Under the pieces are notes generated by a model. That model made no database searches and was not told where the DNA came from. It saw only the letters and a program-made list of their open reading frames with translations. The position numbers and the translations under genes were made by a program. Below are positions 39,842 through 45,907 of a stretch of DNA of 64,000 nucleotides, piece after piece. Position 1 is the first letter of the stretch, and each line of letters begins with the position of its first letter. The DNA is taken from positions 1 through 64,000 of the forward strand of contig JAFLTE010000007.1 of NCBI GenBank assembly GCA_022510565.1, given 5' to 3'. Origin of the DNA: Lachnospiraceae bacterium (lineage in GTDB: Bacteria; Bacillota; Clostridia; Lachnospirales; Lachnospiraceae).

Positions 39842-39870
39842 TTGACATAATGGATTTCTTATCTTATACT
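39842..39870 (+). promoter_or_regulatory. Sigma-A promoter of the nrdD2 operon
   Basis: TTGACA (39842-39847), a 17-base spacer and TATACT (39865-39870), one of the strongest matches in the window. Confidence 0.85.
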
Positions 39871-39982: not shown

Positions 39983-42172
39983 ATGAGTAGTAAATTCGGG
40001 TCAGACAATGCAGTTGATGAAAATTACGGACTGGAATTTCAACCGGACAAGATTGTCAAGGTCGTCAAAAAAGACGGAAGTCTGGAGGCATTTAATGTTC
40101 AGAAAGTAATTGATGCCGTAGGAAAGAGTGCATACCGTGCGTTGACAAAGTTCACGGAGGAAGAGAAGCGTCATATATGTCAGACAGTTATTGATAAAGT
40201 CAACGATATGGGTGAGGAGCAGATTCCAATCCAGATCATGCACAATATTGTAGAAAGCGCGTTGGAGGATGTTAAACCCATCGTTGCCAAGAGCTACAGG
40301 GATTATCGAAATTACAAGCAGGATTTCGTCCGGATGATGGACGATGTCTACAAGAAAAGTCAATCAATTATGTACATAGGTGACAAGGAGAACGCTAATA
40401 CGGACAGCGCCCTTGTCTCTACGAAGAGAAGTTTGATTTTTAATCAATTTAATAAGGAATTATATCAGAAATTCTTTATGACGACGGAGGAGATTCAGGC
40501 ATGCCGTGACGGCTATCTGTATGTTCACGATATGTCGGCCAGGCGCGATACGATGAACTGCTGCCTTTTTAATGTGGCGGAAGTCTTAAGCGGCGGGTTT
40601 GAGATGGGTAATATCTGGTATAACGAGCCTAAGTCTCTGGACGTGGCGTTCGATGTCATCGGGGATATTGTTTTAAGTGCAGCAAGCCAGCAGTACGGCG
40701 GTTTCACCGTGCCTGAAGTGGATAAAATCCTGGAGCCGTATGCGGAGAAATCATACAAGCGCAATGTAGAAAAATATAAGAAATTAGGCGTAGACCAGGT
40801 GACTGCCGAAGCAGAGGCTTTGGCGGACGTGAAGCGCGAATTTGAACAGGGCTTTCAGGGATGGGAATACAAGTTTAACACAGTGGCCAGCAGCCGTGGC
40901 GACTATCCGTTCATTACCGTGACAGCGGGCATCGGAACCGGAAGATTTGCCAAGATGGCTACGATTATTATGTTGAATGTACGCCGCAAGGGACAGGGCA
41001 AGAAAGAGCATAAGAAACCGGTTCTTTTCCCGAAGATTGTATTTCTGTATGATGAGAATCTGCACGGAGAGGGTAAGGAACTTGAGGACGTATTTGAGGC
41101 GGGTGTTAAGTGCTCTGCCAAGACAATGTATCCTGACTGGCTGAGTCTTACCGGCAAAGGATATATTGCAAGTATGTATAAACAGTACGGCAAAGTAATC
41201 TCGCCGATGGGCTGCCGTGCATTCCTCTCACCGTGGTATGAGAGAGGTGGTATGCATCCTGCCGATGACGAGGATGTCCCCGTTTTCGTGGGAAGGTTCA
41301 ATATCGGTGTGGTATCATTGCATCTTCCGATGATTTTAGCGAAGTCCCGTCAGGAAAGCAGAGATTTCTATGAGGTATTGGATTATTATCTGAACCTGAT
41401 CCGGCAGCTTCATATCAGAACATATGCATATTTAGGTGAGATGCGTGCGTCCACGAATCCTCTTGCATACTGTGAAGGCGGTTTTTTGGGAGGGCATCTG
41501 CAGCTGCATGACAAGATTAAACCGATACTGAAAACAGCGACGGCTAGTTTCGGTATTACAGCTTTCAACGAGCTGCAGGAACTTTACAACGGTAAATCTC
41601 TTGTGGAGGACGGAGCTTTTGCGTTGGAAGTGCTGGAGCACATAAATAATAAAATTGCGGAATTTAAAGAGGAGGACGGCAACCTCTATGCCATTTACGG
41701 AACACCTGCGGAGAATCTGTGCGGATTACAGGTGAAGCAGTTCCGTGCGAAGTACGGTATTATCGAGGGTGTGTCCGACAGAGAATATGTCTCCAACAGC
41801 TTCCACTGTCATGTAACCGAAGATATTACCCCCATCGAGAAGCAGGATTTGGAGTATCGTTTCTGGGAGATGGCTAACGGCGGTAAGATTCAATATGTAA
41901 AATATCCGATTGATTATAACACGGACGCAATCAAGACTTTGATTCGCCGCGCTATGGACATGGGATTCTATGAGGGTGTCAACTTATCTTTGGCCTACTG
42001 TGATGACTGCGGACACCAGGAACTGGAAATGGATGTCTGCCCGGTATGCGGCAGCCGTAATCTTACGAAGATAGACCGTATGAACGGATATCTGGCTTAT
42101 TCCCGCGTGCACGGAGATACCAGATTGAGTGATGCAAAGATGGCAGAAATTGCAGAAAGGAAAAGTATGTAA
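39983..42172 (+). CDS. nrdD: Anaerobic ribonucleoside-triphosphate reductase (second copy)
   Basis: Second class III ribonucleotide reductase, 729 aa. It has an ATP-cone (~25-110), a catalytic barrel, a zinc site (CDDC...CPVC) and the glycyl-radical motif RMNGYLAYSRVHGDTR with Gly702. The radical-site context differs from the first copy (RTCGYIG), placing them in different NrdD subgroups. It is cotranscribed with its own nrdG, whose ATG overlaps its stop, and dut. NrdR boxes upstream indicate control by the dNTP-sensing repressor. Confidence 0.96.
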   Translation: MSSKFGSDNAVDENYGLEFQPDKIVKVVKKDGSLEAFNVQKVIDAVGKSAYRALTKFTEEEKRHICQTVIDKVNDMGEEQIPIQIMHNIVESALEDVKPIVAKSYRDYRNYKQDFVRMMDDVYKKSQSIMYIGDKENANTDSALVSTKRSLIFNQFNKELYQKFFMTTEEIQACRDGYLYVHDMSARRDTMNCCLFNVAEVLSGGFEMGNIWYNEPKSLDVAFDVIGDIVLSAASQQYGGFTVPEVDKILEPYAEKSYKRNVEKYKKLGVDQVTAEAEALADVKREFEQGFQGWEYKFNTVASSRGDYPFITVTAGIGTGRFAKMATIIMLNVRRKGQGKKEHKKPVLFPKIVFLYDENLHGEGKELEDVFEAGVKCSAKTMYPDWLSLTGKGYIASMYKQYGKVISPMGCRAFLSPWYERGGMHPADDEDVPVFVGRFNIGVVSLHLPMILAKSRQESRDFYEVLDYYLNLIRQLHIRTYAYLGEMRASTNPLAYCEGGFLGGHLQLHDKIKPILKTATASFGITAFNELQELYNGKSLVEDGAFALEVLEHINNKIAEFKEEDGNLYAIYGTPAENLCGLQVKQFRAKYGIIEGVSDREYVSNSFHCHVTEDITPIEKQDLEYRFWEMANGGKIQYVKYPIDYNTDAIKTLIRRAMDMGFYEGVNLSLAYCDDCGHQELEMDVCPVCGSRNLTKIDRMNGYLAYSRVHGDTRLSDAKMAEIAERKSM

Positions 42173-42681
42173 TGAGATACCACAATATTACCAAAGACGA
42201 CATGCTAAACGGCGATGGTCTGCGTGTGGTGCTTTGGCTGGCAGGCTGTACTCATTGCTGCAAGGAATGCCAAAACCCGATTACATGGGATCCTGATGGC
42301 GGACTGCCATTCGACGATGAGGCCAAGAAAGAAATTTTTGAGCAGTTGGAGAAGCCTTATATAAACGGCATTACTTTTTCCGGTGGAGATCCCCTACATG
42401 CAGCCAATCGTCTGGATGTGAGAGCGCTGATGAAAGAGATTAAGAAGAAATATCCGAAGAAGTCAATCTGGATGTATACCGGAGACAGTTGGGAAGATAT
42501 CTTGCATTATCCCCTTTTGAAGTATGTAGATGTGGTCGTGGACGGTGAGTTTAAGAATGAATTAAAAGACACCAAACTTCTATGGAAGGGAAGCAGCAAC
42601 CAGCGTGTGATTGACGTACAGGCAACTCTTAAACAGACAGACCCCGCCATTCCCATACTTTACTGCGGAGATTATGCGTAA
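42172..42681 (+). CDS. nrdG: Anaerobic ribonucleoside-triphosphate reductase activating protein (second copy)
   Basis: Radical SAM activase of the second NrdD, 169 aa. The cluster motif CxxxCxxC reads CTHCCKEC, followed by QNPITWDPDGG and FSGGDPL. The ATG shares its A with the nrdD2 stop, so translation is coupled. It differs clearly in sequence from the activase at 2234, consistent with two non-interchangeable enzyme pairs. Confidence 0.95.
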   Translation: MRYHNITKDDMLNGDGLRVVLWLAGCTHCCKECQNPITWDPDGGLPFDDEAKKEIFEQLEKPYINGITFSGGDPLHAANRLDVRALMKEIKKKYPKKSIWMYTGDSWEDILHYPLLKYVDVVVDGEFKNELKDTKLLWKGSSNQRVIDVQATLKQTDPAIPILYCGDYA

Positions 42682-42747: not shown

Positions 42748-43182
42748 TTGGAAACGATAAAGATTAAATATTTCTCGGATAAAATAGACAGACTGACTTA
42801 CATAGACGGGAAATCCGATTGGATCGATTTGCGCGCCGCAGAGGATGTCAGTTTGAAAGCGGGAGAGTTTAAACTGATTCCGTTGGGAGTCGGAATGGAA
42901 TTGCCGCAGGGTTATGAAGCGCATGTAGTGCCGAGAAGTTCAACCTTTAAGAATTTCGGTATCATTCAGACGAATCATCAGGGTGTAATTGATTCTTCAT
43001 ATTGCGGTGATAACGATCAGTGGTTTATGCCGGTGTACGCATTGAGAGACACACAGATTCACGTCAACGACAGAATCTGTCAGTTCCGTATTATGGAGAA
43101 TCAACCGAAGATTGTTTTTGATGAGGTAGAGCATTTAGGGAATGTCGATCGTGGTGGACACGGCAGTACAGGCAAGCAGTAA
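42748..43182 (+). CDS. dut: dUTP diphosphatase
   Basis: Trimeric dUTPase, 144 aa, which removes dUTP and supplies dUMP for thymidylate. Motifs in order: WIDLRAAED (motif 1), [12 protein letters not shown] (2), [10 protein letters not shown] (3, with the catalytic Asp), NDRICQFRI (4) and RGGHGSTG (5). The start is a TTG with AAAGAGGA 7 bases upstream; no ATG fits. It is the third gene of the NrdR-controlled nrdD2-nrdG2-dut unit, so dNTP synthesis and dUTP removal are coordinated. Its 3' end is followed by the hairpin/promoter arrangement of the spoVAF-like gene. Confidence 0.93.
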
Positions 43183-43204
43183 CCTTTTCTCTATCTCAGA
43201 AATA

Positions 43205-43235
43205 TGCATAAGAAAACTCCTTTCAAGACATACTA
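43205..43235 (+). promoter_or_regulatory. Candidate sigma-G promoter of the spoVAF-like gene
   Basis: TGCATA (43205-43210), an 18-base spacer and CATACTA (43229-43235) match the published sigma-G consensus TGAATA-N17/18-CATACTA with one mismatch in the -35 and a perfect -10. The predicted start point near 43242 lies in the loop of the terminator hairpin at 43213-43268. Confidence 0.6.
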
Positions 43236-43270
43236 GCAAAATAACTGTATAGTCTTGGAAGGAGTTTTTT
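43213..43270 (+). terminator. Terminator of the nrdD2-nrdG2-dut operon, containing the next gene's ribosome site
   Basis: A 17-bp stem with a single wobble pair joins 43213-43229 to 43252-43268 around a 22-nt loop and ends in TTTTTT. Its 3' arm includes AAGGAG (43259-43264), the Shine-Dalgarno of the spoVAF-like gene, so readthrough RNA would have this site paired. Confidence 0.9.
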
Positions 43271-44711
43271 GACAGTGGAGAAGAGAGAAGAAAACTATAG
43301 TGACAGGATGACGACATCCCTGCAGCAGACCATGTCATACATGAATGAGCATATGAAGCCGGATGCAAGCTTTGACATTGTATACCGTGTTATTGAGGTG
43401 GGCGGCAGGCAGGCGTGTATTTACTTTATCGACGGATTCTGCAAAGATGAGCTGATGATGAAAATCTTGCAGTACTTTATTGATTTAAAGCCTGCGGATA
43501 TGCCGGAGAACGTCCATGGGATGGCAAAGAAGGCAACCCCTTACGTGGAAGTGGATTTGAAAGATACATGGGACGATATTTTCTACAGCATTCTTTCCGG
43601 CGTGTTCGCTCTGTTTATCGACGGATATGACAGATGCATTTTGATTGATTCCAGAACCTATCCGGCCAGAGGTGTGGAGGAACCCGATAAAGACAAGGCG
43701 CTGCGCGGTTCCAAGGACGGGTTCGTTGAGACAATTGTTTTTAATACGGCGTTAATCAGACGCCGTATTCGCAGCACAGAGTTGCGTATGGAGATGATGA
43801 ATGCGGGAAAAAGTTCCCGTACAGATATTGTGTTGTGCTATATGGACAACAGAGTGGATCATGCTTTTCTGGATAAGGTCAAGAAGAGAATTGGGGAGGT
43901 ACAGGTGGACGCTCTGACAATGAATCAAGAGAGTCTGGCAGAGTGTTTGTACCAGCGTAGATGGTATAACCCCTTCCCGAAATTTAAATTTACCGAGAGA
44001 CCGGATGTGGCATCAGCGCAGGTGTTGGAGGGAGATATTGTGATTCTGGTGGATAATTCGCCTTCCGCTATGATTGTACCCACTTCTATTTTTGACATTG
44101 TGGAGGAGGCAGACGATTATTATTTTCCGCCCATTACGGGAACGTATTTACGGCTTACCAGATTTATTATCTCAATACTGACTTACATTATGACACCTAC
44201 GTTTTTGCTTCTCATGCAAAATCCTGACTGGGTTCCGGAGTCTTTCAAATTTATCATGCTGAAAGAGGAATCTAACATTCCGCTGATTGCCCAATTTCTC
44301 ATCTTGGAATTGGCCATTGACGGACTAAAGCTTGCGGCAATCAATACCCCGAACATGCTCAGCACACCTTTAAGTGTGATGGCGGCACTGGTTCTCGGTG
44401 AGTTTTCAGTCAACAGCGGCTGGTTTAATTCGGAAGTTATGCTCTACATGGCATTTGTTGCACTTGCCAACTATACACAGCAAAATTATGAGCTTGGATA
44501 TGCCTTGAAATTCATGCGAATCATCAATCTGATATTGACGGCGGCATTTGGACTGTACGGCTATATAGCGGCAATCATTCTCTTTGTCCTGGCGGTTGTG
44601 TGCAATAAGACACTGTCCGATAAGAGTTACATCTATCCGGTTCTTCCGTTCAACCCCAAACAGCTTGCAAAGCGTCTGTTTAGACTGCGTCTGCCGGAGT
44701 CAAAGAAATAA
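43269..44711 (+). CDS. GerA/SpoVAF-family spore germination protein
   Basis: A 480-aa membrane protein of the GerA superfamily. The cytosolic N-terminal half has LRGSKDGFVETIVFNTALIRRRIR and YNPFPKFKFTERPDVAS, sequences typical of SpoVAF rather than nutrient-receptor A subunits. Membrane helices follow at ~295-460. SpoVAF acts with SpoVA/FigP-type proteins in the spore inner membrane to enhance germination ion release. It is an orphan here, without spoVA or gerB/gerC genes. The start is TTG 43269 or GTG 43275; AAGGAG lies 4 or 10 bases upstream, inside the terminator stem. Confidence 0.87.
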   Translation: MTVEKREENYSDRMTTSLQQTMSYMNEHMKPDASFDIVYRVIEVGGRQACIYFIDGFCKDELMMKILQYFIDLKPADMPENVHGMAKKATPYVEVDLKDTWDDIFYSILSGVFALFIDGYDRCILIDSRTYPARGVEEPDKDKALRGSKDGFVETIVFNTALIRRRIRSTELRMEMMNAGKSSRTDIVLCYMDNRVDHAFLDKVKKRIGEVQVDALTMNQESLAECLYQRRWYNPFPKFKFTERPDVASAQVLEGDIVILVDNSPSAMIVPTSIFDIVEEADDYYFPPITGTYLRLTRFIISILTYIMTPTFLLLMQNPDWVPESFKFIMLKEESNIPLIAQFLILELAIDGLKLAAINTPNMLSTPLSVMAALVLGEFSVNSGWFNSEVMLYMAFVALANYTQQNYELGYALKFMRIINLILTAAFGLYGYIAAIILFVLAVVCNKTLSDKSYIYPVLPFNPKQLAKRLFRLRLPESKK

Positions 44712-44797: not shown

Positions 44798-45907
44798 ATG
44801 GGATACGAAGTACATTCAGAGAAAGGCTGGGTTAACAGAGGTAATCTGCATCGGATGAAGGAACTGATGCGGCGTGCCGAGCAGGGGGACAGAATGACAC
44901 TTGCATTCTTAGGCGGCTCAATTACGCAGGGCTCTGTGTCTACACAATATACGAATTGTTATGCCTATCGGGTTTTTGACTGGTTTGTGAAAAGGTTCCC
45001 GAAAACAGCGTTTACGTATGTAAATGCAGGCGTAGGCGGCACGACCTCGCAATTTGGTGTTGCGAGAGTAGATGAAGATGTGCTGTTATATAAACCGGAT
45101 TTTGTCATCATTGAATTTTCCGTGAATGATGATAATACGGACTTTTATCAGGAAACGTATGAAGGACTGGTGCGCAAGGTATACGGTAATGCCTATGCGC
45201 CTGCTGTCCTCTTGGTACATAATGTTTTTTATAATACAGGTGTCAGTGCAGAAGAGAAGCACCGTGCTGTGGGAGCGCACTATAAGCTGCCCAGTGTCAG
45301 CATGCGTTCTACTATTTATCAGGAAGTGGCATCCGGAGCCATTCCGAACCGCGAGATTACGCCGGACGATTTGCACCCGAATTCATCGGGACATGAGTTG
45401 GTTGCCGATGTAATTACGGACTGTCTGGATAAGATTTATATGCAAAGATGGGAGAACGAGGAGCCTTATTCTATGCCGGAGCCGCTGACGAGGAATGCCT
45501 ATGCCAACGCAAGACGGTATCAGAATCATAACAGTAATCCTGTCTGTGACGGCTTCACGGCTGATGGGACACTTAAGAAATATGTGAATGATATGTTCCG
45601 CTGCGGCTGGACGGCAGCTGCGAAAGGAGCAAGCATCACTTTTGAAGTGGAAGGAACGGAGATTGCTGTACAGTACCGTAAATCGGTAAACCTTCCGGCC
45701 CCTGTTGCGATAGCGGTTGTGGACGGAGATGAGGAGAATGCCGTTACGCTGGATGCCAATTTTGATGAAACATGGGGTGACTGCCTTTATATCGATACGG
45801 CGGCCCATCACATTGCAGCAGGCAAACATAAAGTGGAGATTCGCATAACACAGACACATGAAAACGACGCCGTACCCTTTTATCTTGTGTCGGTCATAGG
45901 TGCGTAA
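44798..45907 (+). CDS. SGNH/GDSL-family hydrolase, probable carbohydrate esterase
   Basis: A 369-aa esterase. The SGNH blocks are visible: FLGGSITQG (nucleophile Ser), the Gly in NAGVGGTTS, FSVNDDN (Asn) and DDLHPNSSGH (catalytic Asp and His). A C-terminal beta-rich domain (~245-369) follows, resembling carbohydrate-binding or acetyl-xylan-esterase accessory domains. No signal peptide is visible, so it likely acts on imported, acylated oligosaccharides. The GH1-ManA fusion gene follows 52 bases later, supporting a sugar-processing role. Confidence 0.82.
   Translation: MGYEVHSEKGWVNRGNLHRMKELMRRAEQGDRMTLAFLGGSITQGSVSTQYTNCYAYRVFDWFVKRFPKTAFTYVNAGVGGTTSQFGVARVDEDVLLYKPDFVIIEFSVNDDNTDFYQETYEGLVRKVYGNAYAPAVLLVHNVFYNTGVSAEEKHRAVGAHYKLPSVSMRSTIYQEVASGAIPNREITPDDLHPNSSGHELVADVITDCLDKIYMQRWENEEPYSMPEPLTRNAYANARRYQNHNSNPVCDGFTADGTLKKYVNDMFRCGWTAAAKGASITFEVEGTEIAVQYRKSVNLPAPVAIAVVDGDEENAVTLDANFDETWGDCLYIDTAAHHIAAGKHKVEIRITQTHENDAVPFYLVSVIGA

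Follow-up and report, generated by a model that had tools for sequence, protein, structure and literature searches.

Main

In the mobile elements IS10 and IS50, RNA that reads in from outside is translationally inactive, with its ribosome site paired, and the element's own promoter starts inside. In Bacillus subtilis, the spoIIGA–sigE unit upstream of the forespore gene sigG is itself a sporulation operon. The best-documented arrangement of this kind is that of phage T4, in which the structured long RNA of gene e gives 100-fold less lysozyme (PMC3014915, in its available part). For T4 genes e, soc, 49, I-TevI and segB and for Aeh1 mobE, the available parts of PMC3014915 and PMC2988022 describe long early transcripts that sequester the Shine–Dalgarno sequence, and a late promoter at the 5′ strand of the hairpin from which a late RNA without that strand is made and translated. 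At B. subtilis sigG, translation of spoIIGA–sigE read-through RNA is proposed to be blocked by a hairpin of 20+ bp that RNA started at the sigG promoter is unable to form; within the transcript from that promoter, sigG is dampened by another hairpin, of 5 bp (PMC5942855, in its available part).

Here we describe a hairpin between an operon and a germination gene of a Lachnospiraceae bacterium, in a 64,000-nucleotide stretch of DNA (the window) that is part of a 3.2-Mb draft genome (89.6% complete). We propose, with a probability of about 0.72, that this hairpin serves both as a terminator and as a translational lock, neither of which would form in forespore RNA. The layout resembles the T4-type genes in its sequestered long transcript and in its promoter at the 5′ strand, but would serve cell-type development rather than phage timing. 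It resembles IS10 and IS50 in the silent read-through RNA and the internal promoter start, but is not a mobile element. It is also like sigG in serving a forespore gene and in having a hairpin that would not form in the gene's own transcript, although sigG is another gene, lies behind a sporulation operon and has its second, dampening hairpin. A role as the upstream operon's terminator is absent from the descriptions in the available parts of PMC3014915 and PMC2988022 and from that of sigG in the available part of PMC5942855, whereas the present hairpin is a likely terminator. A promoter-nested Shine–Dalgarno lock is already known from T4 gene e and B. subtilis sigG; because the sequence-testable features are shared with those systems and the T-tract makes the hairpin a likely terminator, the combination of terminator and lock appears to be a variant. 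A partial search of the literature, covering titles and the openings of abstracts, returned no spoVAF promoter described as lying within a hairpin. If our reading is right, termination, translational silencing and a developmental start are packed into ~65 bases, in a conserved and testable example, and a mechanism best documented in T4 would extend to cell-type-specific bacterial development.

A predicted spore promoter nested in a hairpin

The upstream transcription unit is co-directional with the germination gene and has a predicted vegetative-type promoter with near-consensus elements (TTGACA-17-TATACT, 39842–39870) ahead of its first gene. It comprises, all on the forward strand, nrdD, encoding an anaerobic ribonucleoside-triphosphate reductase (39983–42172; TIGR02487, 569.8 bits, cut-off 326), nrdG, encoding the activating enzyme (42172–42681; TIGR02491, 186.8 bits, cut-off 126.1), and a dut-like gene (42748–43182; PF00692, E = 3.9e-13, above its cut-off) that scores under the NCBIfam dut cut-off and is the last gene before the hairpin. 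The germination gene follows on the same strand (43275–44711). Its probable start codon is GTG at 43275, with a Shine–Dalgarno spacing of 10, and TTG at 43269 is a possible in-frame alternative. The product is a membrane protein of the GerA family, matching PF03323 over nearly its full length (474 bits, E = 4.3e-142). It was the single match of the protein search in its own genome, and no member of the GerAC family (PF05504) was found in that 89.6% complete assembly, with a B. subtilis control matched; for these two reasons SpoVAF-like is a fair label. Its best relatives come from records of which most have Lachnospiraceae in the title and many are metagenome assemblies; one record titled Muribaculaceae (JAMPHJ010000053.1) has a Lachnospiraceae-type locus and is probably a binning error.

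One strong hairpin lies between the dut stop and the germination gene. RNA folding of 43190–43300 gave −35.9 kcal/mol, and none of 200 dinucleotide shuffles was as stable. The folded hairpin consists, on the forward strand, of a 5′ arm (43211–43236), a loop (43237–43244) and a 3′ arm (43245–43270). A reading made from the sequence alone had described 17 bp and a T-run at 43213–43270; hairpin and T-tract are indeed present, and the stem is slightly longer, with its outer 19 pairs unbroken across 43211–43270 (43211–43229 with 43252–43270, G–U pairs counted). The 3′ arm holds the Shine–Dalgarno sequence AAGGAG (43259–43264), as that reading had placed it, and the 5′ arm holds the matching anti-Shine–Dalgarno CTCCTT (43217–43222). 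Directly after the Shine–Dalgarno comes TTTTTT (43265–43270), a predicted terminator tail that is also part of the spacer to the start codon and is partly paired in the predicted fold. A stable stem (z = −6.8) followed by a U-tract has the sequence features of an intrinsic terminator. A simple scan for terminators passed over the hairpin; the scan's loop limit is 3–8, and the loop closed by the unbroken stem is larger.

Sigma-G promoters carry elements of the type GHATR-N17/18-CATWHTA. The sequence GCATA-N18-CATACTA (43206–43235, forward strand; −35 at 43206–43210, −10 at 43229–43235) fits this consensus; its −35 begins just 23 nt after the dut stop at 43182, and its spacer and −10 contain the 5′ arm. 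Geometry puts the transcription start near 43242, 7 nt past the −10 and in the loop. The near-consensus sigma-G promoter and loop start that had been proposed over the 5′ arm are thus upheld by consensus match and geometry, and relatives have similar elements at the equivalent position. A published comparison set exists in the C. difficile sigma-G promoters (PMC3789822, in its available part). The motif alone is not above chance, with 37 exact matches in the genome against 33 in the reversed control, and the sole gene found for a small acid-soluble spore protein (SASP) has no clear promoter of sigma-G type and was of no use as a promoter control. The genome's best SigG match scores 419.8 bits against a curated cut-off of 457 (next match, 223.9). 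A composite of the −10 with the anti-Shine–Dalgarno and the Shine–Dalgarno (CTCCTT-N2-9-CATANTA-N8-36-AAGGAG) occurs at two places in the 3.2-Mb genome, the present hairpin and a second locus whose gene is on the opposite strand, with no match in the reversed control. Across the genus, 47 of 77 genomes contain an exact match to this composite, with 2 reversed-control matches in all.

With its start in the loop, a sigma-G RNA would lack the 5′ arm. We folded RNAs with successive 5′ ends and a common 3′ end at 43310, and took the mean unpaired probability of the six Shine–Dalgarno bases. This was 0.00–0.01 for 5′ ends up to 43217, 0.05 at 43219, 0.42 at 43221, 0.69 at 43223 and 0.53–0.54 for 5′ ends from 43227 to 43251. 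The predicted opening therefore rises from ~0 to ~0.5 once the 5′ end is beyond ~43220; the start at 43242 is well within the open range, and for read-through RNA the predicted value is 0.00.

In the mechanism that we propose, read-through RNA from the upstream vegetative genes would have both arms, and hairpin and T-tract would terminate most of it; in any RNA that escaped, the Shine–Dalgarno would be paired, and growing cells would make no germination protein. Sigma-G RNA polymerase in the forespore would initiate between the arms, and its RNA, without the 5′ arm, would contain neither terminator nor lock and would be translated. We infer the sigma factor, start site, termination and translational effect from sequence and modelled folds. 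The sequence-only reading had envisaged these two fates for vegetative and sporulation RNA, and predicted folding, conservation and the decay of the stem at divergent neighbours support it.

Conservation of the nested layout

We compared the locus with 80 named loci (the best 80 of at least 584 confirmed relatives), 29 genus loci from genomes other than its own (the germination gene was found in 73 of the 77 genus genomes) and, for the family, 200 genomes sampled across 199 genera; 133 of these gave a match, and their orthologs with 47% identity or more supplied upstream DNA. From a panel of 198 loci we dropped five paralogs, L058 (which has almost no upstream DNA) and 28 duplicates; nine had no called Shine–Dalgarno, and 155 unique loci were left. 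L168, anchored inside the gene with its contig ending early, was left out of the family counts.

Loss of the promoter–stem overlap in close relatives had been named beforehand as evidence against the arrangement. The overlap is kept: by a looser criterion, 72 of the 78 unique own, named and genus loci with a called Shine–Dalgarno have a nested stem, the exceptions being L030, L044, L050, L051, L060 and L075. By a stricter criterion, so do 12 of 76 family-panel loci. Three of these (L160, L161 and L190) are without a T-tract, and at L160 and L190 the layout may be incidental. A quick-method protein tree with 163 rows places the trait mostly in one 96-row clade (SH-aLRT 98) with scattered others, and in its looser form it changes at least 14 times.

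Several loci depart from the common form. L015, L032, L063, L066 and L145 have extra sequence in the loop between −10 and Shine–Dalgarno, with both arms kept, and in L015, L032 and L066 the insert looks self-complementary. At L030 a rearrangement or insertion has replaced the −35 and the 5′ arm, with dut still upstream. At L169 a −10-like CATCCTT itself pairs with the Shine–Dalgarno (GCATCCTTTCC / GGAAAGGATGC), the same idea in a different register.

Loss of the stem beside most divergent neighbours

The orientation of the upstream neighbour offers a natural experiment that suggests the stem's purpose. Longest-ORF calling mislabelled many dut loci owing to long antisense ORFs, so dut was assigned by tblastn; 19 other clade loci were oriented by hand (6 divergent, 13 co-directional). 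Ten of their neighbours were scanned against Pfam, with matches for L044, L050, L075 and L152 (divergent) and for L017 and L023 (co-directional), and no match for L028, L029, L051 and L105. L068, L070 and L071, in which the script found no Shine–Dalgarno, were scored stem-bearing by eye, and L030 was scored stemless.

Within the clade, a strict stem is present at 78 of 86 co-directional loci but at 1 of 9 divergent ones, where the promoter remains (scores still 9.5–10.5) and most of the arms have become shorter or disappeared. Helix scores at divergent loci are 12 for L029, 6 for L044, 5 for L050, 7 for L051, 9 for L060 and 7 for L075, against a median of 16 (range 5–21) at 72 other loci. The nine divergent loci also take in L152, L156 and L186; L029 is the one counted as stem-bearing, through a slipped helix, and L156 has a helix score of 13 and drops out on predicted pairing. 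At L044 (1593–2702) and L050 (1700–2848) the divergent neighbour is a GDSL lipase, of the same family as the window's gene downstream of the germination gene (44798–45907), which points to rearrangement.

For the family panel, in which the longest ORF alone decided the neighbour, 11 of 12 loci with the stem have a co-directional ORF that ends no more than 150 nt away, versus 24 of 64 without (Fisher p = 8e-4, a test that ignores relatedness). A simple scan found a separate terminator at only 6 of these 24 stemless loci, so insulation is not universal. On the clade tree, orientation changes four or five times, too few independent changes for a paired test to reach significance: on well-supported branches there were 4 pairs, with on average 2.6–2.8 agreeing and 0.2–0.3 disagreeing (median p 0.25 or 0.5 in two runs of the test), and on the whole tree 11–12 pairs (median p 0.375).

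Together, these sequence comparisons give good but not conclusive evidence that the stem protects against read-through from any upstream gene. The sequence-only reading had seen an insulator between a dNTP operon and a germination gene. Its insulation half is favoured by the decay of the stem at divergent neighbours, but nothing ties the lock to dNTP metabolism, because the lock goes with co-directional neighbours generally: besides dut, the stem is kept at L023, whose neighbour has a chemotaxis receptor domain, and at L017, whose neighbour is of AIR-synthase type.

A proposed terminator and lock

That stem and T-tract occur together speaks for a terminator role. Among close loci, at least four of the five bases after the Shine–Dalgarno are T in 71 of the 72 stem-bearing cases; in the family panel a T-tract is found in 9 of 12 loci with the stem versus 3 of 64 without (p = 3e-7, again without regard to relatedness). 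The same association is expected if the hairpin is a plain terminator whose 3′ arm includes the Shine–Dalgarno because intergenic space is short, sequestration being an unselected side effect. Such a terminator would also decay beside divergent genes, and the gap from the dut stop to the −35 is indeed tight. We nevertheless consider this explanation unlikely, in view of two observations. First, the overlap is kept across longer gaps, with dut 435 nt upstream at L020 and the neighbouring gene 480 nt upstream at L017, although the helices there are shorter (9 and 8). Second, a hairpin without a direct T-tract occurs at another gene in the genus.

This is the second composite match (G000:C103:82589-82625; L142:1500-1560). 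Read on its gene's strand, it forms an anti-Shine–Dalgarno hairpin around CATAACATA, just after a DUF5662 gene and ahead of a gene for a small, Gly/Cys/Asn-rich, coat-like protein with no Pfam match. The pattern recurs in 32 of the 77 genus genomes (4 reversed-control matches in total). Of 30 such loci (our own and L265–L293), all except L277 lie between a co-directional open frame of 120 codons or more and a gene for such a Gly/Cys/Asn-rich protein. Predicted Shine–Dalgarno opening goes from at most 0.06 to 0.35–0.99. Directly after the Shine–Dalgarno there is no T-tract, which suggests that a lock is retained at this gene without a terminator. The −10 looks like that of mother-cell promoters. 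C. difficile sigma-K promoters have AC at −35 (PMC3789822, in its available part); AC is found at 15–17 nt in just 14 of 29 second-type loci, in part because a −10 further downstream was picked by the script at some of them. As a lead, the second locus suggests a translational role beyond termination.

Tentatively, and with somewhat more doubt than conviction, we propose that these Lachnospiraceae repeatedly carry an anti-Shine–Dalgarno within a developmental promoter's spacer, as a code for sporulation genes located behind growth-phase operons. Forespore and mother-cell promoters would both use it, in some cases with the upstream terminator built in, and it would last only as long as transcription enters from an upstream gene. 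Such a signature could help to find sporulation promoters in uncultured gut Firmicutes.

The two arms co-evolve

A duplex test on loci picked for having a stem proved circular and was replaced by one on unselected loci. In this register-free comparison of own and swapped arms, 15 dissimilar representatives of 83 co-directional clade loci, chosen without regard to the stem, gave a sum of −299 kcal/mol with their own arms against −204 (s.d. 15) when permuted; none of 20,000 permutations was as good, and own arms were better than the mean of swapped arms in 14 of 15. Divergent loci (seven representatives of the nine) showed no such difference (6,038 of 20,000). For family loci outside the clade, too, none of 20,000 permutations did as well (without L168, −500 versus −415, n = 62), but own arms exceeded the mean of swapped arms in just 34 of 62, and a few strong stems probably carry the sum.

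With the register fixed, a count of compensatory pairs gave 282 of 371 inner pairs in 53 unique stems versus 246 when shuffled (0 of 2,000 as high, largest 272), a count from which relatedness was not removed. Among 12 representatives the fixed-register covariation was not significant (52 of 84 pairs versus 49.5; 1,535 of 5,000), and the pairing register slips between these lineages. Different yet matched stems are seen at L073, L154, L161, L166 and L223. On the evidence of these sequences, the two arms co-evolve.

This bears on whether the spacer sequence is instead an element recognized by the sigma-G polymerase, or a regulator's site, whose complementarity to the Shine–Dalgarno is incidental. 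Its place in the promoter spacer and its strong conservation in close relatives would fit, but arms that vary between lineages yet match their own partners, and divergent loci that hold their promoter scores and mostly lose the arm, make this very improbable. We give as little credence to a hairpin that acts within the sporulation transcript (in stability, or as a thermosensor or riboswitch) from a real start upstream of the 5′ arm: the start site is placed by geometry, but the promoter found starts in the loop, and a start upstream of ~43217 would keep the Shine–Dalgarno fully paired.

Hairpins at other genes

At the genome's own sigG-like gene (L294, reverse strand), the Shine–Dalgarno region just upstream of the start is predicted to fold into a hairpin, CATCCTTTTTATGTG ... 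ATAGGAAAGGATG, which recalls the B. subtilis sigG case. Enolase-like genes follow a sigma-G-like −10 at L253 (genome G028) and L133, and at L253 an anti-Shine–Dalgarno hairpin is formed around that −10.
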